A stretch of 64,000 bases of DNA from Craspedostauros australis. Lineage: Eukaryota > Bacillariophyta > Bacillariophyceae > Mastogloiales > Achnanthaceae. The stretch covers positions 1,550,001 to 1,614,000 of the forward strand of contig JAMXDE010000004.1 in the NCBI GenBank assembly GCA_026770025.1, given 5' to 3'. Shown here one piece after another: positions 14,422 to 39,215 of this stretch (the stretch's first letter is position 1; each line of letters starts with the position of its first letter). The notes below the pieces were generated by a model, which was not told the origin of the DNA, made no database searches, and saw nothing but the letters and a program-made list of their open reading frames with translations. The position numbers and the translations under genes were made by a program.

Positions 14422-17400
14422 TCATCTATCAGTCACGCCGACGCTCTTGCGACGCTCCCGCAGTAACGACACCTTCTTGTCGGCGCCCCATTCCTCGTAC
14501 AGTCGAATAGCCTCATCGAAATGATACCCCGCGCCCTCCATGTCATCCTCCAGCACCATGTGCTCCGCCAGCCGTTCGTTTGCGAGTGCTTGGTTCTGAG
14601 AGAACCCTCCTCGAGCAGCGGTCCGGATCGCATCCCGATAGAGCTTGACTGCAGCATGGAACGCGTCGTCTCTCTGCTTGCTCTTGTGCGCCTTCCATGC
14701 AGTTCTTTCCGCGCTCAGAATGGCAAAACAGTGCACCGCATTTGGGTTGCCCTTGTTCACCATGGCGCGCAGCGCCTTTCGCGATCGTTGGGCCAGCCGT
14801 TTGACCTTGTTGCGCTTTGACCATGAGAGATGGCCATTTTGGTGGACGCTGATCGTCGCGGCGAAGGAGGAAAAGAAAAAGAATGACATGCTCGAGATGT
14901 AGTACTTCGTATTCTCATTGACATGCTCATACGCCTCGAAGGCTGTCTTGACAGCATCGTCGTAGTCACCGAAGTATGTCGCTGTGAACAGCTTGATGTC
15001 AAGCAGGTCAATGGTTTGTGCCTCATCCTTCGCTTGTGCAAGGCGTCGCATCACAGTGATTTCATCGAAGACCTCACCGACGAGGAGGGTCCGTTGATCG
15101 GACCATCCTCTGAGATGCAACACCATTTGCCATCTGCTTGCAAGGAACTCACGCACCCTGGTTTGATTGAAGTCTTCACATTGATTCGTGTATGTCGAAA
15201 GATCCAACTCCAGATCTCCCAACGGCTTCGCTGTGAAGAAGCACAGGTCCAAGTAATAGATTAGGACCCACATCGCGTTTTGAATATCTCCTGTCGCCAT
15301 GCCGTCGAGATGTGCATCCAGGAGTGGTTGTGCGCAACTCTCGTACGGTATGAAGTTGGTCAGCACAAAGCCGTACGCAGCAAGTGTGGGACGGACTGAT
15401 TCTGCCTTGCTGCTGTTTGCTTCGCACAAATGCATGGCGTAGTTGGCATACAGCTTCCCAGCTTCCATGTTCCCCAAAACAGGACCGATGGCCGCCGCAA
15501 GATTTGCGATGGCATACGCAGTGGAGTTTGTTGTGCCTTTCGTCAAACCATAGTTGATGAGGTCCACCAGGACCAAAGGGTAGAGAACTCCATCGGCAAG
15601 TATAGCACCCACCAAGCACTTACCCAAGGTCCTCATGGTAAGCCCGTCCATAGGATCTTCAGATGGCTGCATCGAGTTCAAATACTCGATCGTCCACTTC
15701 TTTGCGGATACTTGCAGTTTCATCATTCGCCATATGGTCATCACTAGTCTCATCGTGTTGTTCTTGGGATAGTGGTAACCAAGCTTGGCCATCACCTCTA
15801 CACCCAGCTTCATCACATCACTCGCTTTGCCATGATCGGCCGAAGCCAGTTCTCCATTTATCAACACGTGATACGCTCTCATCTTGTCGATCAGCGGACA
15901 GTCGTCGCGCTCGACCACCGCATTGCCGTACTTCTTCATCTTCTCAAACCTGTTGCTCACATAAGCGCACTCTGCGGCTGATGTGAAAAGCTGGAGACTC
16001 ATATCATAATGGGATTGCCAGTGGTCTGGTGGCATCATGTCGATGGTGTTTTGCAGATAGGCATATGCTGCCCGGAAGGCTGCATGGGATGCGGCCTTGA
16101 TTCCAGCATCGAAGTTGAGCTGTGCAACTCGGAAGCGTCGTGTTTGTGTGATGTCGATGTCTTCCATTGATGTTGGTTTTGGCGTTGGGTACTGCGGGAC
16201 CATGTCCAAGCAACTATTGAGAAGATTCACCACCACGAACAGTGACGACTCAAAGTCATCCAGAGATAGCCGATCCATCAAGATGATCCCGATGCGATGC
16301 TGCAGCTCGAGCAAGTGCATCTTCGATGGGATCATTCCAAGTGCTGCTTCCTGCACCTTGTCGTGGATGAAGGAGTATTCGGACGCAGCAGGTGACGGGG
16401 CTGCCATGGCTGTACGGCTACCGGTATGAGCCTCAATGAGTCCCTCCTCTTCGTACACCTTCAGGATGTCCAACCATTCATCTTCGCTTGCAGGTGGTGG
16501 TCCACCAAACAACGACTCGTACAATGCACGATACCCATCCTCATTCATCTCATCGTCCTCCACGAAGCCCTCCAGCGCCGTTCGCAACAGCAACCACGAA
16601 AACGTGGATCCTAAACATGCGGCCAGCGGCAGCAGGTACTGCGCCGTATCGATCTGCTGCAGCTTCAGCTCCATCAACTCCACCACGTTGATGGTTGCCG
16701 GAGTCTCTCGCTTGATCTGATCGTTGTCCCACACCCACTTCATCGATGCGATGTCGTATGACAGCAGGGTGTCCTTGACGAGCATCCGGATGAACTGCTG
16801 GACGAAGAAGACGTTTCCATCCGTCTTCTTGAACACGATCTCTGCCAGTCCGTAGCTGCTGCGACTGTTGGTGTTGGTGTTGTCGTCGTTGAGAGTGGCA
16901 GTGATGGCGTTGCCCACACCTTCACTACCCACGCCGCCATCATCGTTGTAGATCCCCAGTAGCTGTTTGAGCATGGTATGCACGTTGTCCAATGAGAGGT
17001 TGTTTACCTCGAGATTGACGTATCGAATGAAGCGCTCCCGTTTCTTCTTCTGGATGGATGACAGCATCTGGCCAACCAGATCGGCTGTGTTCGATGTGGC
17101 CACAGAGTCCAAGTCCGAAGTGCGCTTGTTGCTGGTGCCAATAGTATTCCTGACATTGCCTTCAGCATTGCTGGTGTTCCCATTATCGATTCCGTCCATG
17201 TTGACGAGGTTGGATCGGAAGCAGATGACGACCATGAGAGAGGAGATGGTGGTGTCCAGCATCCACGACTCGATCATGTTGAGTGATTCCTTGTCTGCCC
17301 ACTGGACATCGTCAGATACCCACACGAGGGGACAGCAGCTGCAGATGATCTTGATGAATCGTCGGAAGGCGAACTTGAGTCGAATGGACTGCTCCTTGAA

Positions 17401-18495
17401 GCCTTCTGCAGAGTGAGCGTGTGCACACTGACTTGCAGATGTTGCGGTGCTTTCGTCACCGTCGACGTGGTTGTCTTGTGTGTTTGTGTATGATAGCGCC
17501 TCGTTTCCGACGACATCGACCAGGTTGGGGATGAGCTTGTTGAGTGATTGCAGCTCATCGATGTTGAGATCATCCGTGATGCGCTGCTTGATCGCATCGA
17601 AGGTCTGGGTGTCCTCTTCTCCACGCTGCTTGGGGTCAACACGGCTTCTTGGAAGAGCGCAGATCTGCGAGCACAGATCAGCCATCGCGATTCGGAAACC
17701 GGAGTATGGCTCATCCATCTGCTTGAGATCGAACTTTCCGGACACGAAGAAGACATTGCTCGCCTTGCACTTCGGTCGCATTGTATTGGCCAGGGCCGAT
17801 TTTCCAGTGCCCGAGTATCCGGAGATGGTCACGAGAGATCGGATTGTCGTTGGCTGCGTTTTTGCATGTTGGCCGAGAGCGTTTTGATTGTCTGGGTTGG
17901 TCGCATTGCTCGCATAGCTTGCGTTGCTTTCCTCGTCATTCGGACCCGTTGACCTCTCTTCGTCTGGCGAAGATGGAGATGGTGGTGGGACTGCGGACGT
18001 TGGCTTCTTGAGGATCTGCTGGAATAGACGGTCGAGGACGCGCTTCTCCTTTTCTCGTCCGATGAGACTGATGCGCGAGAAGTCGAGAGAGTTTTGGGAG
18101 AGTTCCGCTAGCTTTCTGGCTGTGCGCATGCGGTTGGTCTCCGTTGCCAACGCTGGCCGATGTTCGAACATCTCATTTGGCGCACCATTCCGGCCAACGG
18201 AGAGCCTACCACCGATGGAGAACTTTCGAGATTGAAGATTCTCCGGACGCTGGCTGCTGACATCGATTCCGATGCCCGAGTCAGTGGACACTATTGATGG
18301 TGACCTCGAGTAGCTGAATGAATTGGTCGTGGACGAAAGACGTTGTTGATGGGCTGTTGGCTTTGCTTGCTCGTTGTTGTTGGCTGACGGAGAGCGATCG
18401 GAGGGGACACCAACACCAGCGGGATGAGATGCTGTAGTCCCCTCATCGAGCTTGCTGTCATCGCAGTGCGTGGTTCCAGTTATCATCATCTTCAT
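14422..18495 (-). CDS. Orc1-like AAA ATPase with helical repeat tail (copy Y1)
   Basis: Single-exon gene, 1357 residues. Residues 1-140 are Ser-rich and low in order. SLIGREKEKRVL (~143-154) starts the Orc1-like/predicted-ATPase domain. Walker A is GYSGTGKS (226-233). VSGKFD...EPYSGF (~251-266) is a signature of this family. Walker B is VWVSDDVQWAD (391-401). Beyond ~600 the protein is helical and TPR-like (for example AAECAYVSNRFEKMKKYGNAVV). Related ATPase modules sit in bacterial sensor kinases and are expanded in diatoms, usually without known function; an ATP-driven signalling or scaffold role is inferred. No kinase domain or membrane segment is visible. It converges on the truncated X fragment and is a paralogue of Y2 (53365-57411), with an extra Asn/Asp-rich insert near residue ~520. 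Confidence 0.85.
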   Translation of the reverse strand: MKMMITGTTHCDDSKLDEGTTASHPAGVGVPSDRSPSANNNEQAKPTAHQQRLSSTTNSFSYSRSPSIVSTDSGIGIDVSSQRPENLQSRKFSIGGRLSVGRNGAPNEMFEHRPALATETNRMRTARKLAELSQNSLDFSRISLIGREKEKRVLDRLFQQILKKPTSAVPPPSPSSPDEERSTGPNDEESNASYASNATNPDNQNALGQHAKTQPTTIRSLVTISGYSGTGKSALANTMRPKCKASNVFFVSGKFDLKQMDEPYSGFRIAMADLCSQICALPRSRVDPKQRGEEDTQTFDAIKQRITDDLNIDELQSLNKLIPNLVDVVGNEALSYTNTQDNHVDGDESTATSASQCAHAHSAEGFKEQSIRLKFAFRRFIKIICSCCPLVWVSDDVQWADKESLNMIESWMLDTTISSLMVVICFRSNLVNMDGIDNGNTSNAEGNVRNTIGTSNKRTSDLDSVATSNTADLVGQMLSSIQKKKRERFIRYVNLEVNNLSLDNVHTMLKQLLGIYNDDGGVGSEGVGNAITATLNDDNTNTNSRSSYGLAEIVFKKTDGNVFFVQQFIRMLVKDTLLSYDIASMKWVWDNDQIKRETPATINVVELMELKLQQIDTAQYLLPLAACLGSTFSWLLLRTALEGFVEDDEMNEDGYRALYESLFGGPPPASEDEWLDILKVYEEEGLIEAHTGSRTAMAAPSPAASEYSFIHDKVQEAALGMIPSKMHLLELQHRIGIILMDRLSLDDFESSLFVVVNLLNSCLDMVPQYPTPKPTSMEDIDITQTRRFRVAQLNFDAGIKAASHAAFRAAYAYLQNTIDMMPPDHWQSHYDMSLQLFTSAAECAYVSNRFEKMKKYGNAVVERDDCPLIDKMRAYHVLINGELASADHGKASDVMKLGVEVMAKLGYHYPKNNTMRLVMTIWRMMKLQVSAKKWTIEYLNSMQPSEDPMDGLTMRTLGKCLVGAILADGVLYPLVLVDLINYGLTKGTTNSTAYAIANLAAAIGPVLGNMEAGKLYANYAMHLCEANSSKAESVRPTLAAYGFVLTNFIPYESCAQPLLDAHLDGMATGDIQNAMWVLIYYLDLCFFTAKPLGDLELDLSTYTNQCEDFNQTRVREFLASRWQMVLHLRGWSDQRTLLVGEVFDEITVMRRLAQAKDEAQTIDLLDIKLFTATYFGDYDDAVKTAFEAYEHVNENTKYYISSMSFFFFSSFAATISVHQNGHLSWSKRNKVKRLAQRSRKALRAMVNKGNPNAVHCFAILSAERTAWKAHKSKQRDDAFHAAVKLYRDAIRTAARGGFSQNQALANERLAEHMVLEDDMEGAGYHFDEAIRLYEEWGADKKVSLLRERRKSVGVTDR

Positions 18496-21190: not shown

Positions 21191-24100
21191 ATATCCATGA
21201 GGAAATTCGTCCACGATAAAAGTCCAAAATTGTCTCAGGAGACCAAGCGGATTCGAGGGGTGCCAAAATTGGTCTCCTCAGACCAAAATCAAGCAACGCG
21301 ACGTTTTATCGCGATGGCATTTTCTTCGACCACCTCGACTAAAACTATTTGTTCGCGCTCACTTTTTCCCCCCCTCATATCGTTTTTTCCGATTTCTCAA
21401 CGTCCTGGCATGCCCTCCTGCTTACTATGGCTCAATGCTTCTCCTGGATGCATTGAGCCACTTGCATCTCATCACAGTTCTTCGTATACATACGTTCATT
21501 GCATGCTTATCCACGTCCTCCACGCTCTTCACAGGACATGATCGTTCCGCAGCGTTCTTCCTCTTGCATCACAATGATTTGTGATCACGCCTCTTCACAG
21601 GAACGATACACCACCCTGTATTTGATGGACGTTTGTGTGTTATTACTTTGCTATATGTTACATCTCGACCCATTCCCATGGCTGTACTTTCCTTGTTGAG
21701 CTGCTGCGCGCGTTCGCGGTCGTTGTGGAGTTGTCTCCGAGCGCGTCCGCCGTCTCTGTGGTGCTGGTGAAGTCTCAGCAGGAGTCTGGGATGAGGCTTT
21801 CGCTCGTTTCCTTCCTTGGCTCGATTGGATATCTTTGCTTGTTTGCACTGCTGATGGAGTCTTGCGCTTCCCTCCTTTCCTGTCCGGTTGCTTCGCACTC
21901 CACTCAGTGTAATCCGCCTTGGTCTTCCTTGTCCATGATCTGTTGCTTCCGTGGAGCATTCGGAAACATGTGTTGCTTGCAATGATTCGTTCGTTCGCCT
22001 TCTTTCGTAGATTTGACATTGAGATGCTGGTATGCACTCCATTTGCCTTTCCCCATCTCTTGTGATTTGCAGTGGGAGGCACGCAGGCGAAAAAGTGACA
22101 CTGCATGCACATCCATTTCGTTACAACCCCACATACAACGCAGGGTTTCTTCACGTTTTCACAAAAGATGGGCTCATGGCTGCCCGTGCGGAGACGTCGT
22201 TCGAGCGCAGCCATGGCGGGTGTTGGGGCAGCTGGATTCCCAGACAGCAGGTTCCGGATGCTCTTTCCGTCCCTCTCTTCAGTTTCAACAGTCGGTCTAC
22301 CATCGTAGATTTGATTGTCTGTATCCGAATCTGTGTCTGCTGTGTTGTTGATTGCTCCCTGAATAAACCAGTTTGCGTGTTCGCCGTCATCACCTGCTTC
22401 TCTGTTGCTGCCAGCGGCTTGGGCGACAATGACTCCGAATGCCCCTCGCAATGTTTCCAACGAAACCGAAACACTGCTGCGATGATTCAGCATGTTACGG
22501 TAGGTCTGCAGCACCGTTGCGTTGTCCAGGTCTCTATTCGTGTGAACATCGTCTGTGCAACAGTAGTGCATTAGCTTGTGCAGAAACAGAAGGATGACTT
22601 CCACAATCCGTACCACTGCTTGGCATTGGAAGGTTGCGAATGGCGGCTGCACCTTGTGCTGCCTCATCATCCTGGTCATCAAATCAGAGCCGCCCTTGAA
22701 TGAATTCCAACGGGCTACAAACGATGGAACCAAGGTGTGGACCTTTGGCACCGGCATTGGTAGTTCCTGGCATGCCTTCCATATCATCAATTGGTGGAAT
22801 ACATCCTCTTCTGTCAATGACGCAATGTGTTTCCCCCCGGTTGAGCCCATGTGGGGGTTGCGTTTCGAATTCAGATACTTTCGCAGCGTCTTGCCTGACG
22901 CTGCCTCGCGGGACGCGGCAGTGGAGTGCGCGTATGCAAACTCCAACTTCAGCTCATACAGATTTTGTAGCACGATTCCGTATGATTGAAGTACATTGGG
23001 TTGGAAGTGTGTGGACATTGATCTTATGGTGTTAGCAGTTGCATCACCTGGTGGTAGGAGGAGGTTGGTTCGAGAGGATCAGTGGAGAAAAGCAAGAACA
23101 GTTGGAGTGAGCACCGCGTATCGACTTTTGAAATTCATGGCAGGAGCTCCATCCATTTCATACAAGGACGTACCAATTACAATCATCGCCCCTGTCACCC
23201 CAAAGACGAAGGCATGATGAAGCAGTTGAATCATCTCTGATTTCTTTTCGAATAATGCCCTCCACTTGTCGTCTTGGAGATCCACGAACACATGGCTCTT
23301 TCCCTCTGTCCCATGCTCCCAATCGGCCTTCCGCTGGTGCCGTCTTTCGAGGTCTTCTGTGTCTGTCGTTGCCCGAGTCTTGATCTCCACAACAAAGACT
23401 TCATCGTCGCTGTCGTCCTCTGGATCACCGACGATTGCAAGGAAGTCGACGGAGGCGCGGGCGTATGGTGCATTGGTGTTTCGCACCACCCCCACTTGGT
23501 ATGTTGCCTTCACTTGCCTTCCCTCGCCGCCCACTCCAACACAGTGGAGGGCCTGCTTCATGAGGGGAGCTTCGTTTTTGTGGCCCAGCTTGGCGAGCTT
23601 TCCAGCCTTGCCCCGAACCGACTTCATGAACCACGATTGTAACATGAGAGTCGTGAGGTCGTTGTCAAGCTTGTGCATCCACTCTGAAGTGGTGCTTCCT
23701 GCCTGGAAACTGGATGGATGGTCAGGCTCCTGCTCGATCTCCTTCATTGCCAGGGCAACCAATCTCTCCACAACCTTCTCTCGTGGCATTTTCGTTATGT
23801 TGGTCTTGGGGAGACGAGCCTTGAGGTCTTTCTTGAGGGAGGCGTCGCTGAAGGCCAGGAATCGCCGTCGAACCTTGTCATCATCAGCAAGGATGGTGCG
23901 GAGCATTTTGCATCGTGTGGCTTTGCTTCGCTGGGCCTTGCTGCGGTAAAAAATAGCCATGAGTTCGATGAAGTCTTTGTCTGAGAAGGTATCCTCTTCA
24001 GGGGCATCGTCGCGGAGAGAGGAGAGAAGTGCAATTTCAACATGACGGGAATTGAAGGTGGGAGATGTGAGTTTGGAGTATAAATCAAGTGCGCGCAATC

Positions 24101-26461
24101 TCGCCTTTTCTGCTTGCAATGCTTGGAGGTACTTCGCCTTCCGACCAAGCACGTCATATCCCAAGTAGCGGCCAATGCACTCCCATGCAGGTTGATTGAA
24201 TATGGTGGCGTTGTCAGCATTGCACCACTCTCCGCTTTCAAGCACTTTCTGTATCATGCTGTAGGTGGAGGTGCTCGTGAACGCGAAGCGGCGGTGGACG
24301 AACCACAGATGGTCACCCTGGCCACAGGTGAGTCCATCCACAGGTAGATCCCACATCATGTCTGCCCAACGCTGTTTCACATTCTTGGATGCGGCAGCCA
24401 CAATGCTGGTTGCGCCAAGGGGAGTTTGGGATATGGCAGCTCTGACTGCCGACGAGCGTGTTGGATTGACAGTGCATGTTTGGAAGAAGTGTGGGTAGTG
24501 TGGGGATCTTCGATTGTTCCCATGCTTGTCCTCCACCATGTCTTGGTACTTTTGTTGGTCACTGGCGTTGGTGAGGGTGAGGTCCCACTCAAAGCCACTC
24601 GATCTTGTGGAGAGTGCAAGTACAGTTTGTTCGTTGAGACGGTATCCATAGCATGTCAATTGTCGTTTGCCGATGCTGTTGGTGACAGTGCTATGCACCA
24701 TCCTTGGCCCCTTCCTCCCAATATTCATCTGGAGTGCACCCTTGCCAATGGATGGGCCGAAGGTGAATGGTAGGTATCCAGCTCGCATGTGTGTACCCTC
24801 CAGATTAGCACCCCTGGTAGTGAGGAAGACGGTGGTGCTGCGGCAGTTGTATCCTCAATCTGTCATGAGGGTTAGATTTCGAAAAGAACCATCTGGTTCT
24901 TTTAGTTGGGTGAACAACCGATAGGTGTCGTCATCCAACCCATCTCGGCAAGCAGCCAACCCCACAACAAGTCCAGAAGCAGACTGGACAAGAGTGTTCA
25001 GGGTTAATCTGAAGGAACGCAGAAGACGGAAACGAGACGGAGACCTGGGGTGAGGAATTGTAATATGAAATGGAGATGCCACCCCTCTGCAACAAAACAC
25101 ACAATGCTGTTCGTCACTTACCCATTACGATTTGCATGAGTATGTCTCATGCCAAGCAAATAGCTGCTCTCTGCACGGCTGCTGCAATGGACCTTGTCAT
25201 CATCCAATGTGACGATCCGATTCGGGCAACGATGCCGAAGACAAAGAATCTCAAGTGTCAAGTTGAAAGCACTTTCCAATTCGGTCCAAACAAAGCGATG
25301 GCCATTCCGAGAGACAGGGTTTCCATTACGTCGAATACGATCCCAGAGATTGACGTAGTGCTGTCTGGTGGGAAAGCTGGGAAGTGTGGAAGCGTTGCCG
25401 CCATCGTAGAGCCGACGAACGGTGCCGCCTTCCACCATCTGTGATGTGATGGCATAGAGGAACTCCATGTACTCAGCATATGAGAAACCCAGCTCACTTG
25501 GGCCAAATGCACGGATGAAAATGGGAGATGTGGGGCCCAGCACATCGTGGATCAAGTCATGGGGTGTTGGCACGTATGGTGGAGACCCAGGAGGACTCTT
25601 GGGGAAGCGCTGCAAGACAGCTGTTCGCAGTGAACGAATCTCTTCCTTTGCATGGAGGAGAGCGAGCTTCTGGGCTTCTCCAACAGTCACTTTTGTTGCA
25701 TGCTCGTAGGCCGAGAGCACCTTCCACTCCACAGAGATCTCCCTACTCCCCTTCTTCGGAGGGAGGACGATGCGATGGCTGTAGCCAGGAAGCGAGCACG
25801 GTTGGACTCCAAAATCGCCAACAGGATCTGGAGGCACCGCTGTAGGCACCGCACCTTCGTCATCACTGTTGACACAGATGCCATCTCCTTCTTCTTCATG
25901 GGTGTGTTTGCCTGCATCACCCATTCCATCATCCAAAACTTGTCCAAAGGGATGAAGCTGCTGGGATGGAGAGACATTGCCATGGCCGGTTGTTGCAAGT
26001 GGAGTGGAAGCTGTGGGCAAGTCGTCATTGGCATTGGGAGCATCAGGCGGAAGAGAAGATGCCATGATGAAGTTGACGTATCGAAGAAGGCAAGCTGGAA
26101 GAAGAAGGCAGTATGGGGGATGCTGCGAATGATAAGCAAGGAGGTGCGAGGTTGATGATGGGATGAAATGAACCACAGCAGGCAAGGAGGTTGGAGAGGG
26201 AGGGTTGTTGCCATCTGGAGGAAAGCGAAGAAACAATGACGATGAAGAAAATCTTGGAGGAGGAGATGTCAGAACGAAGAGCTGGCAGAGTTTCTTTTAG
26301 TCAAAGTATTCGACCGCAAAATCCTATCGTGGAGATTTATCACGTGGAACTGAAAATTGTCTCCTCAGACCGGATTTTGGCGAACCTCCGGGTAACTTTG
26401 TCTCCTGAGCCCAAAATGGCCATTTTTGGTCTCCCCAGACAGAATCTGTCCTCATGGATAT
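21191..26461. mobile_element. DNA transposon with DDE/PD-(D/E)XK-like transposase
   Basis: Inverted termini of ~110 bp: the left reads ATATCCATGAGGA inward from 21191, the right reads the complement ending at 26461. Both termini contain internal TTGTCTCAGGAGAC- and GGTCTCCTCAGACC-like words. The outermost ATAT on each side is best read as a 4 bp target duplication, giving an element of 21195-26457. It holds one long minus-strand transposase gene (21651-26065). It has no close neighbour of its type in this window. Confidence 0.75.
21651..26065 (-). pseudogene. Composite transposase: DDE-like region plus PD-(D/E)XK-like module
   Basis: Exon 1 is 26065-25122 and exon 2 is 25086-21651, across a 35 bp GTAAGT...CAG intron that keeps the frame, for ~1459 codons. 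Two in-frame TGA codons (24855-24857 and 23079-23081) interrupt it, each one step from CGA. The first sits where a D-R-G-Y motif would be expected (LMTD, stop, GYNC), so it is probably inactive. An RNase H-like fold is suggested by VTLDDDKVH (D288-290) and LMTD (D391). Residues ~819-935 carry a PD-(D/E)XK-like set: E in GHKNEAPLM, D862 in SVDFLAIV, E882-K884 in VVEIKTR and Q935 in EMIQLLHH, in the order seen in YqaJ-type nucleases. Next come a WNSFKGGSDLMTRM motif, a Cys cluster (CVVC...CMQC) and a basic tail. The superfamily is unassigned, perhaps a distant piggyBac relative. Confidence 0.6.
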
Positions 26462-26957
26462 GAGCCCCCCGAGTGAGTCGACCACTCGTTTGAAACGGGC
26501 ATTCTAACTTTTCATCTTTGATATCCAAACCAAGCACATATTCGTAATCCTTATAATCTTCTTACAAATAATTAACCGATAGATTTTTGATGTATATCCT
26601 TTTTTAAGTTTTATGGATCGATCTATATGTTCATTCTAGTCGCGTGGATCCAACAGCACAAAACCCGTTGTTTTTCGCCGAAGGTTCTATGCTGTTCTCA
26701 CGCATTTATCGTGAGGTGATCAGTCACGGACTTGCTTCCGAAGGTCTCAGTCGTTTGGTACGCGTTAATTACACGTTAGCATGTGGCACCTGATTCCACA
26801 TTCTGCTCGTCACAAAACACATGACACAAAACACATCACACAAAACACATCATCTCCATCATTTCACAAAATCGCGCCACACTTTGGCTCCATTCACAAC
26901 TGTCCTCGCCAATGCCCGGCACACTCGCCCTTTCGCTCCATGCCCGTTCTCGTCAGA

Positions 26958-27136: not shown

Positions 27137-30100
27137 ATGCCTCTCTCTACCACCCCCAAGGCCCTCTCCAAGGATGCCAACCCCTCCCCCAGTAAGAAAC
27201 CACGTGCTCACCCTGTGTCTGCTCCCTTCGATTCGAAGGGATTCCTGTTGCCGACTGCAGAGCAACTGTTGCCCGACAAGCCGTCCGCTACGTTGAGGAA
27301 GCAGAGCACCATCACGCGAGTGATGGATGTGAAGCCGATGCATGCAGCGGATGGCAACCTCGTCCCGAACGGTATGCATGCGCACGCTCGCGAGCTGCAC
27401 GTGTACGTTCACATCCTCGACAACAACGGATGCGTCTACGACGACTCCCACGTCGAGGTGCGTTCGGAGGGACGAGGTGTCGGCGATGGGACTTCGGTGA
27501 GCGTTATCGTGAACGCGCCACCCCCGCCTGCTGCAGCTGACGTTGCATCACCTGTCGCGCCGACCCCACCAGCGAGGATTCCTCGTCGCTGCAATGCTGT
27601 TGTTGCTGGGGGCTACGCAGATGCCTCTAGCGATAGCGACAGCGCGTACGAGGACAACGGCAAGGAGCAACGAACACGTGCCAGCAGGAACAGGAGAGGA
27701 GGCCAGTTCGGGTACGATCCGGAAGAGGCGGGAAACTGGAGGCGTGATGCCATCGTCGATGTGATTGCAGTGCTAAGATCTAACCTAGATCCAGAACTGT
27801 TGCACCACATGCCCAAAAAAGGATTCGTTCTTGCAGGCACACACGATCGGACCATCTGGAGCTATGTGAAACAGATGTGGAGTGTCCTATCGTCTGCACT
27901 TTGGACTGTCCTGCTCCCAGAGGAGGGCATGCCAACTCGTCAGATGGAACAGGTACTTACATACATACGCGGCAACGTGGAGCTTCCTCCTGTGATGTTG
28001 GCATCTAACCTCTACACCCTGGGTTTGCTTGGAGAATCCGAATCATCCCGCACGGTGAGAGCTGCTTTGGCCGTGTCTGCGCCGCACGCACTGTGCACTA
28101 CTATCCTGGAAAGGCATGCACATGGACTATCGGAGGAACAGAAGGCGCGCATGCTCCCCAAACGCGACATCGTCACGCAAAGCCAGGCAAGCACCTTGCG
28201 CCGCTACTATGACATGTTGAGTCATGGCGAAAGCATCCCTCCAAAGGTTCTCCAGTATCGCGTGCGTGCTTGCGATCTGTCTGCTGTGGCATCGTTCCTT
28301 GTGACCACCGCTACGTACAAGGCAGGCCTGAGTCACACGGTACAGTACGGAGGCGCCAAATTTGAAAATGTCCCCGTGTTCGATCGAGGAAGCACGACTA
28401 TCGAACAACTATTCGGCATGTACACATCAACGACCAACAGCCCAGTGGGAATGCCTGCGTTCACCACCATGACCCACCTACTCACGCGCAAAAGCAAGAT
28501 CAAGACGGGCCTTTCTTCCTTCGAGAGCTACTTCTGGATGGCGACGGAGAAACTCAAACAGGCAATTTCGCGCCTAGTAGACCTCCTGAAGGCTAAGTAT
28601 GAAGCAGACGAGGAGGAACAAAACGATGCCAATGACAAGAGCGACAGCGACAATGACGAGCCAGATGACGTCATCGCACCACATGCGCGCACAGCCGATT
28701 CTCTCTTGCATGCACTCGAACTGCTTGTTGTGTTCCTCAAATGGGAGTTCACCGCCTCTCACATGCAGCTTCAGTGTGATGATCCAATGCACTCGGCCAC
28801 GTTCGCTCTCACCACCAAAAAGGAGAAGAAGAAGGCACCATCCACATCAACCAATCAACGCAAACCACGCACCAACAAGCACAAGCGCAAGAAGACCAAT
28901 CTCAAAAGCGACACGCCAACCATCACAAATGACATTCCAGTGGTCACAACAAACGAACAACCGCGTAAAGTATGCAACCGTTGTGGATCAGCAATGCGAT
29001 TTGTGAATGATCGTTTTGTCCCATTCGTCGAAATGCTTAAGGACAATGAACTCGCAGAACACAAGGACGAATTGCAATCAATGCTCGCGGCGGCGCCGGG
29101 ATTCGCCAACGAAATTGTTAACTACATGGCTCACAAAGTGCGTGCAAAAGTTCAATTCCGACAAATCGCCTTTTATCAATCCGAACTCAATGATAAGCCT
29201 GAAAGAGCCTATGTGGTACTTGACCATAAGCAAAAAATTCTACCGACAGGCCAAAGCGAAGCCCAACAAGAATATTGGGGGAAGAAGGGAATGTCACTGC
29301 TTGGGGCGATGGTCATCACGTGTCGCAATGACATTTTTACTTATCAGTTCATCGACATTGTGGTCGGCGGAAGACCGACACAAGACACACTTCAAGTTGG
29401 TGGACTACTTGACATCCTGCAAAAAACGGTCAAAGACATTCTCCCATCCGTGACTGAAATCATCCTACAGAGCGATAACGCTTGTTGCTTCGCCAGTCAC
29501 GAGCACATCGCGCTCATCACATCGGTACTCAACAAGAACCTTGCGACACGAAAGGCGGCCAAAATCATCGCGTGGATTTACACGGAGGCCCAAACTGGTA
29601 AGAGCATGCTGGACACCCACTTCGCGTACATCACACGTGTACTGCGAAAATACGTGCAAAGTGGACGCAACATCAAGACCCCGTTCCAACTCTTCCTCGC
29701 GCTCCAAGCCGGTGACATCGCAGGTACCACCACGGTACTTGCCAACGCGTCGTCCCTCCAAGGCAACATCACCACGCTTCCTGGCGCACCAAAACGACGA
29801 TTCCGCGCGAACGGACAACAGGTACGTCAGACTCACGAGGTGAAGTATGACGATGACCAGGCGCGGTTGGTGGCTGCATCTGGCATCACGGAAGACGTCG
29901 TTGTGAAGAGCGCTGAATGGGACGGCTGGATCATCAACCAGCTGGGCGTTGTCGCTGTTCACACACACAAGTCCGACAAGCTGCCGATAACGTCCGAATC
30001 GTTCAGGAAGACGGACAAGACGCGAAAACTCGGGCGCACAGCGGCGGAGAGCAAGGCAATTGTGTTCGGCAAAGTCCTCCAAGTCGCACAACGATGTCTG

Positions 30101-30658
30101 CCGTCCGACAACACCGCGGAGTTGAAGGACAAGACCGCCGAAACTGAACACCCACCACTCGCAGTGCCAGGCTGGGCGAGCAAAACCGTACGGATCAACG
30201 CGAAACTACCAGACTACATCGCGGACAAATTGAAGGACATCAGTGAAGCGTCTGCGAAGGACCCGAAAAACAGACCATCCGAACACGAAGCACACGAACA
30301 ATTGATGGCCAACGAAAGAACCAAAACTGACTGGTACGTACAACTGCACGCAAATCCCATGCGCGTGAAAGCGTCGCTGTCTGCAGCGTACAACGCGAAA
30401 CAACGCAAGGACAAGAAGCAGGCCGCTCTCATCAAGGCGGAAACCAACACCAACACCAACCCAACAAGCACAGCAGCAGCATCTGTAATCGTGGCAACCC
30501 CCAATGCGCCAGCTGCAACAGAGGAGGAACGAAGAGAAGAAGCGTTGTGGAGAGAGGAAGAGGAATTGGAGAATCAGAGGTGGTGTGATGCTCACACAGT
30601 GAAGGTGAATGCAGAAAGTGAGGCTGTGTTGGATGATGATGGCACGAAAATTTTGTGA
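27137..30658 (+). CDS. DD36E-type transposase, 1173 residues, uninterrupted
   Basis: The only large gene of the 26462-32506 transposon and presumably its transposase. Residues 1-200 are Pro/Ser/Lys-rich. A helical part with FFxLF-poor, acidic inserts (EEEQNDANDKSDSDNDEPDD) runs to ~560, followed by a Lys/Thr-rich linker. CNRCG (~614) and an upstream C/H group could bind zinc. The catalytic core reads D696 (VVLDHKQKIL), D780 (LQSDNACCF) and E817 (YTEAQTGKSMLDTHF), so 36 residues lie between the second D and E, as in many DDE enzymes. FGKKG/WGKKG and QSDNA motifs remind me of an unnamed transposase-like family in other eukaryotes, but I cannot assign a superfamily. The C-terminus is Lys/Glu-rich. 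The frame is whole and the TIRs are good, so the element could be recent. Confidence 0.75.
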   Translation: MPLSTTPKALSKDANPSPSKKPRAHPVSAPFDSKGFLLPTAEQLLPDKPSATLRKQSTITRVMDVKPMHAADGNLVPNGMHAHARELHVYVHILDNNGCVYDDSHVEVRSEGRGVGDGTSVSVIVNAPPPPAAADVASPVAPTPPARIPRRCNAVVAGGYADASSDSDSAYEDNGKEQRTRASRNRRGGQFGYDPEEAGNWRRDAIVDVIAVLRSNLDPELLHHMPKKGFVLAGTHDRTIWSYVKQMWSVLSSALWTVLLPEEGMPTRQMEQVLTYIRGNVELPPVMLASNLYTLGLLGESESSRTVRAALAVSAPHALCTTILERHAHGLSEEQKARMLPKRDIVTQSQASTLRRYYDMLSHGESIPPKVLQYRVRACDLSAVASFLVTTATYKAGLSHTVQYGGAKFENVPVFDRGSTTIEQLFGMYTSTTNSPVGMPAFTTMTHLLTRKSKIKTGLSSFESYFWMATEKLKQAISRLVDLLKAKYEADEEEQNDANDKSDSDNDEPDDVIAPHARTADSLLHALELLVVFLKWEFTASHMQLQCDDPMHSATFALTTKKEKKKAPSTSTNQRKPRTNKHKRKKTNLKSDTPTITNDIPVVTTNEQPRKVCNRCGSAMRFVNDRFVPFVEMLKDNELAEHKDELQSMLAAAPGFANEIVNYMAHKVRAKVQFRQIAFYQSELNDKPERAYVVLDHKQKILPTGQSEAQQEYWGKKGMSLLGAMVITCRNDIFTYQFIDIVVGGRPTQDTLQVGGLLDILQKTVKDILPSVTEIILQSDNACCFASHEHIALITSVLNKNLATRKAAKIIAWIYTEAQTGKSMLDTHFAYITRVLRKYVQSGRNIKTPFQLFLALQAGDIAGTTTVLANASSLQGNITTLPGAPKRRFRANGQQVRQTHEVKYDDDQARLVAASGITEDVVVKSAEWDGWIINQLGVVAVHTHKSDKLPITSESFRKTDKTRKLGRTAAESKAIVFGKVLQVAQRCLPSDNTAELKDKTAETEHPPLAVPGWASKTVRINAKLPDYIADKLKDISEASAKDPKNRPSEHEAHEQLMANERTKTDWYVQLHANPMRVKASLSAAYNAKQRKDKKQAALIKAETNTNTNPTSTAAASVIVATPNAPAATEEERREEALWREEEELENQRWCDAHTVKVNAESEAVLDDDGTKIL

Positions 30659-32327: not shown

Positions 32328-32533
32328 CGAAAATTGCGCATATCCATCGGTCCGTAAAACTTAAAATAGGATCTAACTAAAAAATGTAATGGTTAATTAT
32401 TTGTATTAGACCTACAAGGATTACGAATATGTGGTTGGTTAGTATGTAGGAGAGAAAATTTCTGGAGGTCCGTTTCAAACGAGTGGTCGACTCACTCGGG
32501 GGGCTCATATCGTTTCAGAATCCTCTCTCCGAG

Positions 32534-33323
32534 TGTCAGGAATCGAGGGTGCGACTATGTCGTATTATCCTAGATTGCCGCACCTCCCATAATACCAAAA
32601 TTAGACTGACCGATCTATCAAAGTCGGACACGCTCCCAAGTCCATTGTGGACCTCCTCCTCTGTGTGTCAAGAGTATGACGGACGACGGACAGACTAATC
32701 GTGAGACATGGTTTGAGTGGATTGACGAACTGGCATGGCGAACGATGGATGTGAAAGAGAGACCGGAACACCGAAGTGTTCCAAACATGAGGGTTGACTG
32801 GTTAACCTGAAACATCTATGCGAATGCGCTATCACGGTTGAGTCGCTCGGAACCCAGAACATGATTACGTGACTGACAGAGAACCAGCGAAGGAGAACAA
32901 AGCGCGGACTGGAACAGCATCGAAGGACTGGACTGATCGTGCCAGAACTCCATGTTCTGAGCAAGTGTGATTGTTGGTGAACACGTGAGAAGAGTGAGTG
33001 AACAATACGGAAGAGTACACTGAATGAGTGAATGGATGCCTGATGAGAAGAGAGTGAATCGAGCATCAGCATGTATGCGCCTCAGGAGTGTAGACCAATC
33101 TCTCAACAGCTGAGCATGATGAAATGCACTTGTCATGAGCAATGAAATGTGCATGACGGAGAGAGTCTGTAATGATGATCATGAGGGGCAACTACAGAAG
33201 GCCATCAGCATCATCATGGGCAAACGAGTTGACGATTTGAGAAAGGAGTATGTTGTTCTCACAGTTCTAAAACGGTAAAGTTTAATAAGCATTAGACTCT
33301 ACTATAACCCCGGATTTCCAACA
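32534..33323 (+). repeat. 5' LTR of young Copia element
   Basis: 790 bp, with TG...CA ends. Same length as the copy at 39287-40076 and almost identical to it. Confidence 0.93.
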
Positions 33324-33410
33324 CGTTTCGAAACGTTACGATTGAAATCCTACGTTTCTACCACCATCAGCACAGCAACACTCGCCATTACCCTTACCAC
33401 CACCATCATC

Positions 33411-36400
33411 ATGAGCTCCCTCTTTGGCAAGTCCGATCGTTACCCCATCGTGTTCGACGGAAAGAAGTCCAACTGGAACGCATGGAGCGCTAAGTTCCTC
33501 ACCCGCGCTGAACGCAAGGGCTACGGGAACTTTTACCTCCAAGCTGCGGATGCCGTGGTGGTGAAGGATGAACCTCTCGGACCATCCGGTCTTGCCCCAA
33601 CGACGGGCGGAGACTCGGGTACGGGGGAACCCAAGAAGGTGTCAGCCATGTCCTACACGGAGAAGGCTGAGTACCGGAAGGCGTTGGCGAAGTACGCGTT
33701 TGAAGAACTGACCATGGCTATCAACCATGAAACTCCGGAAGGCAATGTTGCCTTCATGGCTGTGCTGGGATGCAAGAGCGGTACCTACAAAGATGGTGAT
33801 CCACGCAAGGCGTGGAAGGCGCTCGAGCGCATCTACGAGCAACGTACTGCTCCAGTGAAGGCACAGTTGTTGGCTCAACTCAACGGAATGCGGTTGAAGA
33901 AGGGCGAGCGCCCTGATTCGTTCCTCACCGAGATGGAGGTGCTCCGCAACCGTTTGGGGAATGCTGGCGTGAAGATCGACGTCGAGCAATACAACATGCT
34001 TGTACTCAACGCTCTCGGGAGAGACTACGAGATGGACGTGAAGCTCATAGAGCTCAAGTTCGCAGGCAAAGAAGACAAGATGACAGTTAAAGACATCCGC
34101 GAGGCCGTGTGCCTCACCTACGACCGCCACCATACCAAACATGGTTCTAAGCGCGAAGGAGGCAACCATGGCAAGGAGGAGATGGCCTTGGCCGCGATCG
34201 GCGGATTCAAGGGCAACTGTCGCAACTGTGGCATCTACGGACACAAGAAGGCGGACTGTCGCTCCCCTACAAAGAGCGGCAACGGCAAGCAAGGCGGTGG
34301 CGCCAAGAAGAATGGCAACCGCGGCAACGGCAACCGCAACAACGGCAACTTCAGCGCCGGAGGCTTCAACGGCAAGTGCAAGTTCTGTGGCAAGACAGGC
34401 CACAAAATCTTGCAATGCTTCAAGTTGAAAGCAGCGATGAAGGACGCAGACTCAGCCAATGTAGCTACTGACGGGATGGACGGCATGAACGACGTCGCGC
34501 TGGTCACCGTCGATGATGTGATGATGTGTCACGAAATCGCAGAGGATGGAAAAATCGCGCGCAACATCGAAAATGTGAGCGAAACCAAAATTCTCACCAA
34601 CCACGAAATCGTGACAACACACACCCACGACACGGAGAGCGGCATCGAAAACCTCATGGAGGACATGGCTCTCATGGTCGTCGATGGAAACCTGGCCGCA
34701 GGATTCTACAACGGGACCAACAACAACAATGACGATGGATCGGTCGAAGTGGTTGGGATTCGCAGCCCGAACGACTACGGTTATTACGGACCACAAGTCA
34801 ACGCGGATCGCATGATGAGTGACAACTTGTTCTCGTCTGATGAGAGCGAAGCTGACGAAACCGAAAGCAACGAGATCGCGATGCCCGGCATCGACCTCCA
34901 CGCGACGGCCTCAGCAAGGCGACCAGAGCCAATCCACAACGTGCGCCCCATCCGCTCCTACTTGGACGGATTGATCGAGACCGCGTCTCGACGCGACAGA
35001 GACAACGCGTGGTGCCCACTGTGCCTAACCAAAGGGCCTTTGTTCTCGTGGTGTGTTGACTGCCCGTTCTGCCCATTCTTGATCCTCATCCCAGGAGGAC
35101 CAAAGGGAGACGTGCCTGTAACACCAGCCGAGAAGCTCCAACGCCGCCAAATCCTTGGAAGCGACAACCCTCCCTATGCGGTGAGATGCTCGCTGTCCAA
35201 CGTGATGCCTGCGAACGATGTTCGTTCCGACCTCTCGCTCATCTGCTATGACGCGATGGAGGCATACCAAGGCATCAACGAGAACCGCATGGAAGTGCGG
35301 AGTGTGTACTTCATGCTGATGACCATCGGCGTGATCGGAGCATACGACGTGGCGAGTAAGGCAATCGACATCAACGATCTGCTTGAGGAGAATCGTCTCC
35401 CGCCACTCCCGAAGAACCTGATCTCGCGTATGAGCGCCATGGCCGCGGATCGCCTGCTCTGGATTCACCATCCATCGGACAACGGCGTACGCGACGGACA
35501 CATGTTCGACGAGTTGCCTGTCTACGGGTACAACCATGCGCATGAACTAGCCATGGTGATCGGTGACATGTACGACGCCGGCGAACGCAAGAAGACCATC
35601 GCGCCAGATCGCCACGAGGCAAACACCTGGCTTGGCGACTCGGGGGCATCGTGCCATCTCACCAACAGCGACGAGGGCATGACCAACTTGCGCCTCGCGA
35701 GCTTCGCAGTGAAAGTGGGAAGCGGGCGCTACCTCAAAGCAACGAAGGTGGGCGACAAACGCATGAAAGTGATGCAGAAGGATGGCTCGGAAGTCATCAT
35801 CATCCTCAAGGCGGTGAAGTTCGTCCCCAAGCTTTGGGTCAACCTCCTGAGCATCACGAAGGCACTCGAAAGCGGATTCGACATCAGCAACAAGGGTGTG
35901 GTGATGGCTCTCGAGAAGAACGGATTGCGCATCCGTTTCGACCGCATCATGGCGACTCACAGTGGATTCGTCTCCGGCGTGAACATGGTGGCGGTCCCAG
36001 CCGAACATGAGATGGCAAACATTGGTGTGTCCACCGGCAAGGCGGTCGACATCAATCAAATCCATAAAATGTTAGGCCACGTTGACACTTACACTATCTC
36101 GCGCACTGCTGCGCGATACGGATGGAATGTCATAGGACGAATGAATCCATGTGAGGACTGTGCTATCGGCAAATCTCGACAAAAATGTTTGTCGAAAATG
36201 TCACAGGCGAAGGCGAGCAGAGTTGGCGAACGGCTGTTCATGGATACCTCCAGTGTCCAGACGTACAGTTTTGGTCGCGGAAAATTCTGGCTCCTGATCA
36301 TTGACGACCACAGCGACTACTGCTGGAGCTACTTCATCAAAGAGAAGAGTGAAGTGGGATCGAAGATGATGTCGCTCTTGAGATGGCTCAAGGCGAATCA

Positions 36401-39215
36401 GAACGTGACTGTCATGAATATCAGGTGTGACAACGCAGGAGAGAACTACAGCGCAGAGGCGCAGCTACTCAAGGAGGGATTCGGCCCGACGTTCGAATAC
36501 ACGGCAGCTTCAACTCCACAGCAGAATGGTCGCGTGGAACGGAAGTTCGCTGTGCTATGCGGAAAGGTCAGGGCGATGCTCAATCAGACCCACGTACCAA
36601 AGCATCTACGAGGAAAGCTATGGGCCGAAGCAGCAAGAACAGCAACGCAACTCGAGAACATCATTGGAACGAAGTCGAGAGAACCGGCTTGCGTACTATT
36701 CAATGGGCAGACACCCACATACGTGGACAGACTGCGTTTGTTCGGCGAGATTGGCATGGTGTTCATTGGAGGCCGAGTGATCAAGGCGAAGCTGGACGAT
36801 CGGTCCAAACCGGCCATGTTCGTCGAATACGGACAGTCACATGCGAGCGGTGTATACCGAATGATGAATCTCGCAACGGCAAGGATCCTAATCACGCGAG
36901 ACGTGACATGGATGAACCAGTCGTATGGGCAATTCAAGGGTGTTGAGAATGCCAACAGGTCGGTGATATATGATCTAGATGACGACGACTATGAGACTGG
37001 AGATGCAATCCAGAGAAAGAGAGTGACTTGGGGGCGAAGCTCGAATATCGCGAGGAACGCGAAGATCGGCGTAGCAGAGAGGAGCGGAAGAGCCGGACAC
37101 ACGAAAGGAAACACAGATGACACCGCTCACGAGCAAGATGACTTGCTACCTACCCAAGGGGAAGAACCATCGTACAATGATGAGGGCGATGAATCCGGAA
37201 GGGACAATGACCGTGCGGGGCGGATCGATTCAGCTATTGAGCAATCGACTGCTCGCACTCCCGTGAGACCATTGGCGCGCGTACCGAGGATGGTGAGTGG
37301 CCTGGCAGGCTACAACAACTCACCGATTCCCCAAGAGGAGAGGGAACGAGAATCAGAATCAGATTCGGAATCGGAGGCAGACGAAGCATCAGCATCAGGA
37401 GATGAGGATGGCTATGACACTGCGCAGGAGACAATGATAGTCCCCGCGGCTACTGGAGGACCCAACTTCCACACAGATGGGTCGATGTTCAACAGAGACG
37501 TCGCCAGCATGATGATTGATACTACCCAAGGGAGGATGAGACTCATCGACTTCATCGCTGCGAGTCAAGATGTTGAGAACGAACGGAATGGTGAATGGTC
37601 CGAACAAGCCAATACGGCTGTGATGTTGGATCCAACGACGTTCGAGGAGTGCTGGGATCATGCTGATCCCGAGAAGAGAGAGAAGTGGCGCGGGGCTATC
37701 AACAAGGAGTTTACCGACATGGCCAGAAGAGGAGTATGGCAGAAGATCAAAAAGAGCGAGATGCCAGACGACCGACGATGCGTGAAGACCAAATGGGTGT
37801 TCAAGGAGAAGAGGAACGGCGTGTTCCGCGCCCGACTGGTTGCATGTGGGTACTCCCAGATTGCAGGAGTCGACTTCTCAGCGCATCATGCACCGGTGAT
37901 CCACGACGCTACCTACCGAGTGATGCTAACCATGAAGATGCTTCTTCGAATGGACTGCATCATCATCGACTTCGAGACAGCGTTCTTGCATGGGGATCTC
38001 GAAGAAGAGATCTACATGCAATGCCCGAAAGGCATGAGGCATGAGGCAAATGAATGCTTGTTGCTCAAGAAGACAATCTATGGGCTCGTGCAGAGCGCCA
38101 GGCAATGGAACAAGAAGCTGGTCGACATGCTGATCGAAATGGGATTCAGACAGAGCAAGGTGGATCCATGCCTCCTGATTCGGAATCAGGAAGGGAGACT
38201 GTTACTGATCGGAACCTACGTCGACGACTGCCTGTGCATCGGGGATGAACAGGAGCTGAAGGACCTTGTGGGGGACATCAAGGCAAAGCGATTCGGTATC
38301 AAGGTGGAAGAAGATCTCGAAGACTACCTCAGTTGTAAGATCAACTTCAACCACGACGAGACCAATTGCTGGGTGAACCAACCGCACATCATCAACAACA
38401 TCGTCAGTACTTTCAAGGACGACGTGATGAAGCTGCAACGATACGGTACACCAGGGACGCCGGGACAAGGCATCCAGAGAGAGAGTGACTCACCAAAGGT
38501 CGACAAGCAGCGACACAGCAACTACCGAAGCGGAGTGGGGATGCTGCTGTACCTGGTGAAACACTCAAGACCCGACATCGCCAATGCAGTGCGAGAGCTG
38601 ACCAAGGTGTTGGACGGACCAACGGCCGCAGCGTACAAAGAGATGCTGAGAGTCATGAAGTTCGTGTCGGACACGAGGGAGTACGGTCCGAAGATGAGAC
38701 CGAAACCCTTGGAGAACGATGCATGGAAGATTGTGGTGTACACCGACAGCGAGTTCGCTGGTGACAAGGACAATCGCATCAGTGTGGGAGGACACCTCGT
38801 CCTACTACAGGGAGTACCTATCATCTGGAGATCGAAGGCACAACGCAGCGTGACGCTGAGCTCAACGGAGGCAGAGTACGTTGCACTGTCGGAAGCAGGC
38901 AAGGAGATCCGCTTCCTGACGCAATTGATGAGTGACATCGGGTTGGAGATACACAAGCCGACAGACGTGATGGTTGACAACGTGGGAGCAATCTTCATCG
39001 CTTCCAACCCATCAACATCGGCCAGAACCAGGCACATCGATATCCGACATCACTTCATCCGAGAGCTGATTGCGAACAAAGAGGCTAGAGCCCGGTTCGT
39101 ACGTTCAGAGGACAACATCGCAGACGGCTTCACCAAGAACACGAAGAAAGAGATCTACGACAGACACAAGGGAGATATCATTCAGCCTCGGTCAGCAGTG
39201 GACCGAGAGGAGTGA
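33411..39215 (+). CDS. Copia Gag-Pol polyprotein
   Basis: A single 1934-residue frame; the ATG at 33411 (MSSLFGKSD) is the first in frame. Order: Gag domain (to ~34190), two CCHC knuckles (CRNCGIYGHKKADC ~34216 and CKFCGKTGHKILQC ~34377), an acidic spacer, and a Cys-rich patch CPLC...CVDCPFC (~35010-35080). Next come aspartic protease (LGDSGASCH ~35630), integrase zinc part and catalytic core (~36050-36950), an acidic Ser-rich linker, reverse transcriptase with YVDDCLCIG (~38218) and RNase H with TEAEYVALSEA (~38865). The order PR-IN-RT-RH is diagnostic of Ty1/Copia. The long spacer between Gag and protease with a Cys patch is unusual; a related segment occurs in the older Copia element of this window. 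Confidence 0.92.
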   Translation: MSSLFGKSDRYPIVFDGKKSNWNAWSAKFLTRAERKGYGNFYLQAADAVVVKDEPLGPSGLAPTTGGDSGTGEPKKVSAMSYTEKAEYRKALAKYAFEELTMAINHETPEGNVAFMAVLGCKSGTYKDGDPRKAWKALERIYEQRTAPVKAQLLAQLNGMRLKKGERPDSFLTEMEVLRNRLGNAGVKIDVEQYNMLVLNALGRDYEMDVKLIELKFAGKEDKMTVKDIREAVCLTYDRHHTKHGSKREGGNHGKEEMALAAIGGFKGNCRNCGIYGHKKADCRSPTKSGNGKQGGGAKKNGNRGNGNRNNGNFSAGGFNGKCKFCGKTGHKILQCFKLKAAMKDADSANVATDGMDGMNDVALVTVDDVMMCHEIAEDGKIARNIENVSETKILTNHEIVTTHTHDTESGIENLMEDMALMVVDGNLAAGFYNGTNNNNDDGSVEVVGIRSPNDYGYYGPQVNADRMMSDNLFSSDESEADETESNEIAMPGIDLHATASARRPEPIHNVRPIRSYLDGLIETASRRDRDNAWCPLCLTKGPLFSWCVDCPFCPFLILIPGGPKGDVPVTPAEKLQRRQILGSDNPPYAVRCSLSNVMPANDVRSDLSLICYDAMEAYQGINENRMEVRSVYFMLMTIGVIGAYDVASKAIDINDLLEENRLPPLPKNLISRMSAMAADRLLWIHHPSDNGVRDGHMFDELPVYGYNHAHELAMVIGDMYDAGERKKTIAPDRHEANTWLGDSGASCHLTNSDEGMTNLRLASFAVKVGSGRYLKATKVGDKRMKVMQKDGSEVIIILKAVKFVPKLWVNLLSITKALESGFDISNKGVVMALEKNGLRIRFDRIMATHSGFVSGVNMVAVPAEHEMANIGVSTGKAVDINQIHKMLGHVDTYTISRTAARYGWNVIGRMNPCEDCAIGKSRQKCLSKMSQAKASRVGERLFMDTSSVQTYSFGRGKFWLLIIDDHSDYCWSYFIKEKSEVGSKMMSLLRWLKANQNVTVMNIRCDNAGENYSAEAQLLKEGFGPTFEYTAASTPQQNGRVERKFAVLCGKVRAMLNQTHVPKHLRGKLWAEAARTATQLENIIGTKSREPACVLFNGQTPTYVDRLRLFGEIGMVFIGGRVIKAKLDDRSKPAMFVEYGQSHASGVYRMMNLATARILITRDVTWMNQSYGQFKGVENANRSVIYDLDDDDYETGDAIQRKRVTWGRSSNIARNAKIGVAERSGRAGHTKGNTDDTAHEQDDLLPTQGEEPSYNDEGDESGRDNDRAGRIDSAIEQSTARTPVRPLARVPRMVSGLAGYNNSPIPQEERERESESDSESEADEASASGDEDGYDTAQETMIVPAATGGPNFHTDGSMFNRDVASMMIDTTQGRMRLIDFIAASQDVENERNGEWSEQANTAVMLDPTTFEECWDHADPEKREKWRGAINKEFTDMARRGVWQKIKKSEMPDDRRCVKTKWVFKEKRNGVFRARLVACGYSQIAGVDFSAHHAPVIHDATYRVMLTMKMLLRMDCIIIDFETAFLHGDLEEEIYMQCPKGMRHEANECLLLKKTIYGLVQSARQWNKKLVDMLIEMGFRQSKVDPCLLIRNQEGRLLLIGTYVDDCLCIGDEQELKDLVGDIKAKRFGIKVEEDLEDYLSCKINFNHDETNCWVNQPHIINNIVSTFKDDVMKLQRYGTPGTPGQGIQRESDSPKVDKQRHSNYRSGVGMLLYLVKHSRPDIANAVRELTKVLDGPTAAAYKEMLRVMKFVSDTREYGPKMRPKPLENDAWKIVVYTDSEFAGDKDNRISVGGHLVLLQGVPIIWRSKAQRSVTLSSTEAEYVALSEAGKEIRFLTQLMSDIGLEIHKPTDVMVDNVGAIFIASNPSTSARTRHIDIRHHFIRELIANKEARARFVRSEDNIADGFTKNTKKEIYDRHKGDIIQPRSAVDREE

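Follow-up and report, generated by a model that had tools for sequence, protein, structure and literature searches.

The pairing of a DDE transposase with a λ-exonuclease-like nuclease is already known from two groups of transposons, as described in the passages cited here. In KolobokE the two are fused, with the nuclease downstream (PMC9587614), and in ISL2EU, belonging to the PHIS superfamily, a DDE transposase and a YqaJ exonuclease domain occur within one element (PMC4482050, PMC9179366), which has two open reading frames (ORFs), the YqaJ protein being separate (PMC4482050). A further point of reference is piggyBac, whose catalytic domain, according to the cited part of its description, is interrupted at residues 372–433, past the fifth beta-strand and between D346 and D447, which is where DDE transposases that carry an insertion domain generally have it; residues Y439 and N440 make contact with the hairpin as well as with its TTAA, and its own active site cuts, forms hairpins and reopens them (PMC7351741). 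Here, we consider a candidate transposon on the minus strand of a 64,000-nucleotide stretch of the Craspedostauros australis genome (contig JAMXDE010000004.1, positions 1,550,001 to 1,614,000; hereafter, the window), for which a preliminary description proposed a DDE-like domain joined to a PD-(D/E)XK nuclease-like module in a layout matching no named eukaryotic superfamily. The latter part of that proposal has to be abandoned in view of KolobokE and ISL2EU.

We read the locus as one broken copy of a DNA transposon whose gene would encode a piggyBac/IS4-type DDD transposase with a YqaJ-type nuclease between the second and third catalytic aspartates (D2 and D3), and taken as a whole this proposition appears to us evenly balanced. 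Its parts differ in strength. The module itself is, to judge by its sequence, very probably a divergent YqaJ/λ-exonuclease-like nuclease, and we lean slightly towards the arrangement in which D1048 serves as the third Asp and the nuclease occupies the insertion-domain location between D2 and D3. The features are as follows, with window coordinates and residues of the spliced protein.

21195..26457, minus strand: candidate element, with ends 5'-CCATGAGGA...TCCTCATGG-3'
26458..26461: putative target duplication copy ATAT on the 5' side, adjoining the element end (preferred reading)
21191..21194: putative target duplication copy ATAT on the 3' side, adjoining the element end (preferred reading)
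25122..26065, minus strand: exon 1, residues 1–314 plus 2 nucleotides
25009..25121, minus strand: putative intron 1, GTAAGT...CAG, GT-AG type, 113 nucleotides, joining exons in different reading frames
23174..25008, minus strand: exon 2, holding D365, an in-frame TGA (24857–24855) and most of the nuclease module
23048..23173, minus strand: putative intron 2, GTACGT...CAG, GT-AG type, 126 nucleotides, holding the stop of a 569-residue ORF
21651..23047, minus strand: exon 3 to the stop, in the spliced reading
25196..25204, minus strand: candidates for the first catalytic Asp (D1), D288–D290 in TLDDDKVH, the best place for the 13-residue piggyBac/piggyBat D1 motif
24858..24860, minus strand: D2 candidate D365 in LMTD, with an in-frame stop right after it
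24249..24317, minus strand: YqaJ N-terminal W-x-x-x-R...S motif GDHLWFVHRRFAFTST..., residues 546–568, its best place in the protein
22902..23642, minus strand: YqaJ/lambda-exonuclease-like PD-(D/E)XK core, residues 771–975, spanning intron 2
23226..23573, minus strand: nuclease signature E794, D836, E856, K858 and Q909, aligned by hmmsearch, the Q909 stretch weakly
22683..22709, minus strand: D3 candidate WNSFKGGSD (D1048), residues 1040–1048, matching the 26-residue piggyBac/piggyBat D3 motif
22083..22142, minus strand: C-terminal Cys cluster CxxC...CxxC...C, residues 1229–1248, zf-UBP E=0.017

The nuclease signature is directly observed as the motifs NEAPLM (E794), SVDFLAIV (D836), VVEIKTR (E856, K858) and EMIQLLHHAFVFG (Q909), in this order. 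For comparison, YqaJ profiles were made from prokaryote genomes, an initial one from 12 sequences and a later one from 50 of 51 loci, and the borders of the core (771–975) were picked after the motifs had been seen. With the 50-sequence profile, unfiltered hmmsearch returned the core at E=4.1e-6, residues 539–975 at E=1.7e-5 and the whole protein at E=1.6e-4, all these values being those of a one-sequence search, and the main stretch (9.7 bits) aligned E794, D836, E856 and K858. The hhalign score of the core against the same profile amounted to 28.0 vs a shuffle mean of 12.5 (standard deviation 2.3) and was reached by none of 400 shuffles; for residues 539–975, this count was zero of 200. The 12-sequence profile, with which hhalign aligned SVDFLAIV, VVEIKTR and MIQLLHHAFVFG to the D, ExK and Q motifs of YqaJ, gave a core score reached by none of 300 shuffles (three of 300 for residues 539–975), and when it was applied to 134 window segments of 205 amino acids, own protein included, the top two contained the core. 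Among library models, the better of two NCBIfam matches of a 198-residue core was the lambda-exonuclease family TIGR03033 (E=0.037, weak), the other (E=0.14) modelling a protein of the phage tail, and its sole PHROG match was phrog_434, a RecE-like recombination exonuclease (E=0.12, weak). Four of the five YqaJ sub-motifs (W-R-S, D, ExK and Q) find their best place in the whole protein where expected and in the right order; taken singly they are weak, their scores being reached by 119, 276, 126 and 26 of 500 shuffles, respectively. Thus a YqaJ/λ-exonuclease-like module beside DDE-type motifs, with the residue order originally proposed, is upheld by the profile, NCBIfam and PHROG matches. The lack of any PD-(D/E)XK profile match, named in the preliminary description as the outcome that would speak against it, was encountered in Pfam but not with the YqaJ profiles, NCBIfam or PHROG. 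Upstream of the core, the stretch FSDASLKKDLKARLPKTNITKMPREKVVERLV (residues 701–732, approximately 23757–23852, minus strand) by eye resembles a SAP-type DNA-binding motif; Pfam gave no SAP match for it.

On the transposase side, a D3 motif was built from piggyBac (6x67) and piggyBat (9c0f) around the third Asp. Scanned over all window ORFs that reach 60 amino acids (51,626 positions), its 26-residue version scores highest at the WNSFKGGSD stretch, with two of 500 whole-protein shuffles as good. The 55-residue version places the same stretch first of 35,212 positions, again with two of 500 shuffles as good, and a three-sequence piggyBac profile aligned this very place as well, though without significance (26 of 200 shuffles as good). 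By this motif D1048 is probably the third catalytic Asp, downstream of the nuclease, and if so, the nuclease would lie at the location of the piggyBac insertion domain, 683 residues separating D2 from D3, and may sit inside the transposase fold. The distance from D1 to D2 is 75–77 residues here vs 78 in piggyBac (D268, D346). An IS4 signature Y..R...E......K was also sought and discarded, as it has no meaningful place, Y..R...E occurring once only, at 1174. The DDE-type motifs are present where originally described, although the evidence for them (D1, D2, D3 and piggyBac profile tests) is weaker than for the nuclease, and the proposed succession of a DDE domain followed by a nuclease holds as far as both lie in one gene, whereas the nuclease is more likely inserted, with the candidate D1048 downstream of it.

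The gene runs on the minus strand from an ATG at 26065 to a stop at 21651, exactly as given in the preliminary description, and in spliced form comprises 1,391 codons in three open stretches, with two putative introns and one in-frame stop. All motifs quoted earlier were recovered, namely VTLDDDKVH (D288–D290), LMTD/GY (D365), NEAPLM, SVDFLAIV, VVEIKTR and EMIQLLHHAFVFG, and the four residues then numbered keep their spacing, our numbers being 26 lower throughout. The single frame that had been assumed is not uninterrupted, being broken by the two proposed introns and by the in-frame TGA between LMTD and GY, but the splices do keep the frame. Both introns are predictions from the sequence itself. 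The segment 23173–23048 is probably a second intron, and its removal in frame would eliminate the stop ending the 569-residue ORF. Since the TGA at 24857–24855 directly follows D365 of LMTD, the second candidate catalytic Asp, the present copy would be broken at its second catalytic motif. At the C-terminus, the zf-UBP match of the Cys cluster (E=0.017) was obtained with a 61-residue piece and falls under the Pfam cut-off.

The borders of the element are marked by ATATCCATGAGGA, an inverted match that is perfect over 13 bp and lies at 26449–26461 (minus strand) and 21191–21203 (plus strand). The distance beyond the start codon is about 0.4 kb and that beyond the stop about 0.45 kb; a match of at least 13 bp arose in four of 1000 Markov-resampled flank pairs. 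We prefer to read it as CCATGAGGA ends enclosed by a 4-bp direct duplication of ATAT, though ATAT is its own reverse complement and thus a single copy cannot separate a duplication from an outer inverted repeat. The duplication is favoured because the left flank belongs to a repeat whose second copy, at 32339–32511, reads CTCATATC and has one ATAT at the same place; past this ATAT, the second copy resembles the right flank weakly. The two repeat copies (26457–26629 and 32339–32511, about 174 bp) are 81% alike overall, with full identity over the 40 bp that adjoin the element. On the preferred reading the element ends with 5'-CC, and with AT should ATAT belong to the ends; it has no 5'-RR. No further copies of the element were found within the window. 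The repeat of about 174 bp may be a terminus belonging to a different family of transposons.

The contig scans for relatives covered non-eukaryotic collections and were seeded by exact 8-residue patterns, thereby addressing close relatives only. Pfam, PADLOC and PDB sequence searches returned nothing relevant. Three queries against viral contigs gave no confirmed relative (one, zero and two pattern-matched stretches), as did the exon 2 query against GTDB bacterial and archaeal genome contigs (17 stretches) and the 569-residue ORF in plasmids and phages. A degenerate W-F...R...F pattern had three matches in viral contigs, none relative-like by inspection of translations. The window contains a second piggyBac-type transposase, a 465-residue ORF at 60045–61439 (plus strand; Pfam DDE_Tnp_1_7, E=9.3e-12), which by tblastn does not resemble the proteins of the element; neither this ORF nor piggyBac itself found anything in viral contigs, and the ORF found nothing in PDB at E<=1. 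In prokaryote genomes, DDE_Tnp_1_7 appeared in one of 296 at E<=0.001 but under the cut-off, and in none of 398, and owing to this near-absence a larger piggyBac profile was not buildable. As a separate observation, Lambda exo was present at 100% identity in seven bacterial assemblies, on contigs assigned to Shewanella, Leeuwenhoekiella, Oceanobacillus, Kitasatospora, Neobacillus, Streptomyces and Pseudomonas, in three of the seven cases on contigs measuring 48.4–48.5 kb; this is probably phage lambda contamination.

A number of results weigh against the proposed reading. Concerning the nuclease, Q909 falls in a second hmmsearch stretch scoring 0.5 bits (−1.5 in the larger piece), hhalign with the 50-sequence profile aligned E, D and ExK and left Q out, the E sub-motif scores best elsewhere in the protein, a 422-residue piece including the nuclease had no PHROG match, and Pfam returned neither YqaJ (PF09588) nor a DDE domain for the element protein, DDE_Tnp_1_7 included. 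Concerning the transposase, the 13-residue D1 motif is best in the protein at VTLDDDKVHCSSR with 174 of 500 shuffles equal and hence not significant, its 31-residue version has a different best place, and the piggyBac D2 motif is unmatched in the protein; the 13-residue D3 motif is best in the protein at WNSFKGGSD with 209 of 500 shuffles equal and is outscored there by other places in the window, and neither of two pieces matched the three-sequence piggyBac profile significantly (77 and 26 of 200 shuffles as good). TTAA is absent at both ends of the element, the non-eukaryotic collections scanned contained no homologues and hence gave no evidence of conservation, and AlphaFold models of 397 and 175 residues, computed without alignment, were poor (mean predicted local distance difference test values of 36.2 and 34.5). 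Finally, the presence of nuclease and D3 in one protein hangs on the putative intron 2, so that the D3 assignment together with this intron carries the novel part of the claim.

Were the third acid located within residues 366–545, the nuclease would be fused downstream of a complete DDE domain, like in KolobokE, and KGGSD would be a coincidence. Such a layout does exist (PMC9587614, in the passage describing KolobokE), D3 is assigned here by one motif, the 13-residue form of which is not significant, and the D2 motif is unlike that of piggyBac. We nevertheless hold this version to be rather unlikely, since no C/DxxH signature is found between D365 and the nuclease core (strings of this type are DWEH at 877, within the module, and DVFH at 1008, past it), the ends show neither TTAA nor 5'-RR, and the 26-residue D3 motif ranks first among the window positions. 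Intron 2 might also be unreal, in which case there would be two genes, one for a protein with D1, D2 and the nuclease ending at 23079 and another for a Cys-cluster protein from 23018. The ORFs of 569 and 455 amino acids are indeed both open, with a stop between them, and the part of PMC4482050 concerning ISL2EU describes a two-ORF element with a YqaJ protein. However, a 126-nucleotide GT-AG intron takes out the stop in frame, and the nuclease, unlike in ISL2EU, shares the exon of D365 and not the second ORF, which makes two genes improbable. As for the chance origin of the PD-(D/E)XK resemblance, implying an ordinary insertion domain, it might be suspected from the lack of a Pfam match, from library matches that are weak and under cut-off, from sub-motifs weak singly and from structure models of no use, but is hard to reconcile with zero of 400 shuffles and E=4e-6 (one sequence), with the alignment of E, D, ExK and (weakly) Q in order and with the fact that the best NCBIfam and the sole PHROG match are both exonucleases of YqaJ/λ type; we regard it as very improbable.

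Other features of the window surround the element. On its left side, a 1,173-residue ORF without Pfam match is oriented away from the element (27137–30658, plus strand), its LQSDNACCF being DDE-like by eye. Further on, 32533–40076 is by eye a Copia-type element with a 1,957-residue ORF (33342–39215), which adjoins the copy of the left-flank repeat described above; its own flanking repeats (32533–33323 and 39286–40076) are 99.4% identical, suggesting a recent insertion. ORFs of 1,357 and 1,392 amino acids (14422–18495 and 53365–57543, minus strand) lie in duplicated DNA, of which 3.3 kb show approximately 94% identity and 1.2 kb show 89%, and the former carries an AAA_16 ATPase domain. A 428-residue ORF at 62560–63843 (plus strand) matches DDE_Tnp_4, a Harbinger-like transposase (E=1.6e-15).

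Assuming the preferred arrangement, with the nuclease between D2 and D3, the element would have been a cut-and-paste DNA transposon with one gene, now broken. Cutting of the transposon ends, and their joining to AT-rich targets of 4 bp, would fall to the RNase H-like site, with the nuclease positioned at those ends as well. Relatives of λ exonuclease degrade 5' strands. Such strands would most likely be the substrate here too, and the nuclease would trim the overhang once it is released or resect the break or gap left in the donor in order to steer repair. Since the own site of piggyBac cuts and both makes and reopens hairpins, it is likelier that the YqaJ module plays an accessory part than that it cuts the second strand in the TnsA-like way suggested by the preliminary description. 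If the nuclease does serve as an insertion domain within the RNase H fold, each polypeptide would bring two distinct metal-dependent nuclease sites to each transposon end, and such a single-polypeptide version would make the question accessible to point changes in either active site.

The systems outlined at the beginning compare with the element as follows. In KolobokE, which could be compared by description, the nuclease follows the transposase domain, and here it is apparently between D2 and D3; Kolobok features are TTAA duplications, 5'-RR ends and C/DxxH between D2 and the last E, in contrast to ATAT and CC (or AT) ends in our case. With ISL2EU, it shares a DDE transposase plus a YqaJ nuclease within one element, yet there the ORFs are separate and here the nuclease and D365 lie in one exon; ISL2EU is further characterized by THAP/HTH (helix-turn-helix) domains and AT duplications, and no Pfam THAP match was obtained with the protein pieces searched. 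Relative to YqaJ/lambda exonuclease (PF09588, TIGR03033), the G...E, D, ExK and Q motifs follow in order, but approximately 225 residues separate the end of the W-R-S motif (568) from E794, far above the profile. The likeness to piggyBac includes the D1–D2 spacing, the third motif [Y/W]-N-x-x-KGG-x-D (YNQTKGGVD in piggyBac and WNSFKGGSD here), a C-terminal Cys-rich part, an insertion between D2 and D3 and, on the preferred reading of the ends, a 4-bp palindromic target, while the differences are a three-stranded insertion at 372–433 there against 683 residues with a nuclease here, TTAA against ATAT, the lack of a profile match and a dissimilar D2 motif; among the literature matches listed, none was noted that joins a piggyBac-type transposase to a nuclease of the YqaJ kind or one resembling λ exonuclease. 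The element is assigned to none of the three transposon groups, as it lacks the TTAA and 5'-RR of Kolobok, the separate ORF of ISL2EU and the profile match, D2 motif and TTAA of piggyBac. It is tentatively conceivable, somewhat short of an even chance, that the insertion domain is a whole catalytically competent exonuclease-type domain and that a separate lineage acquired this nuclease independently of KolobokE and ISL2EU. If the insertion is real, these two would be joined by a third transposon group with a λ-exonuclease-like nuclease, here inside the transposase, suggesting that 5'-end processing is recurrently needed in eukaryotic transposition.

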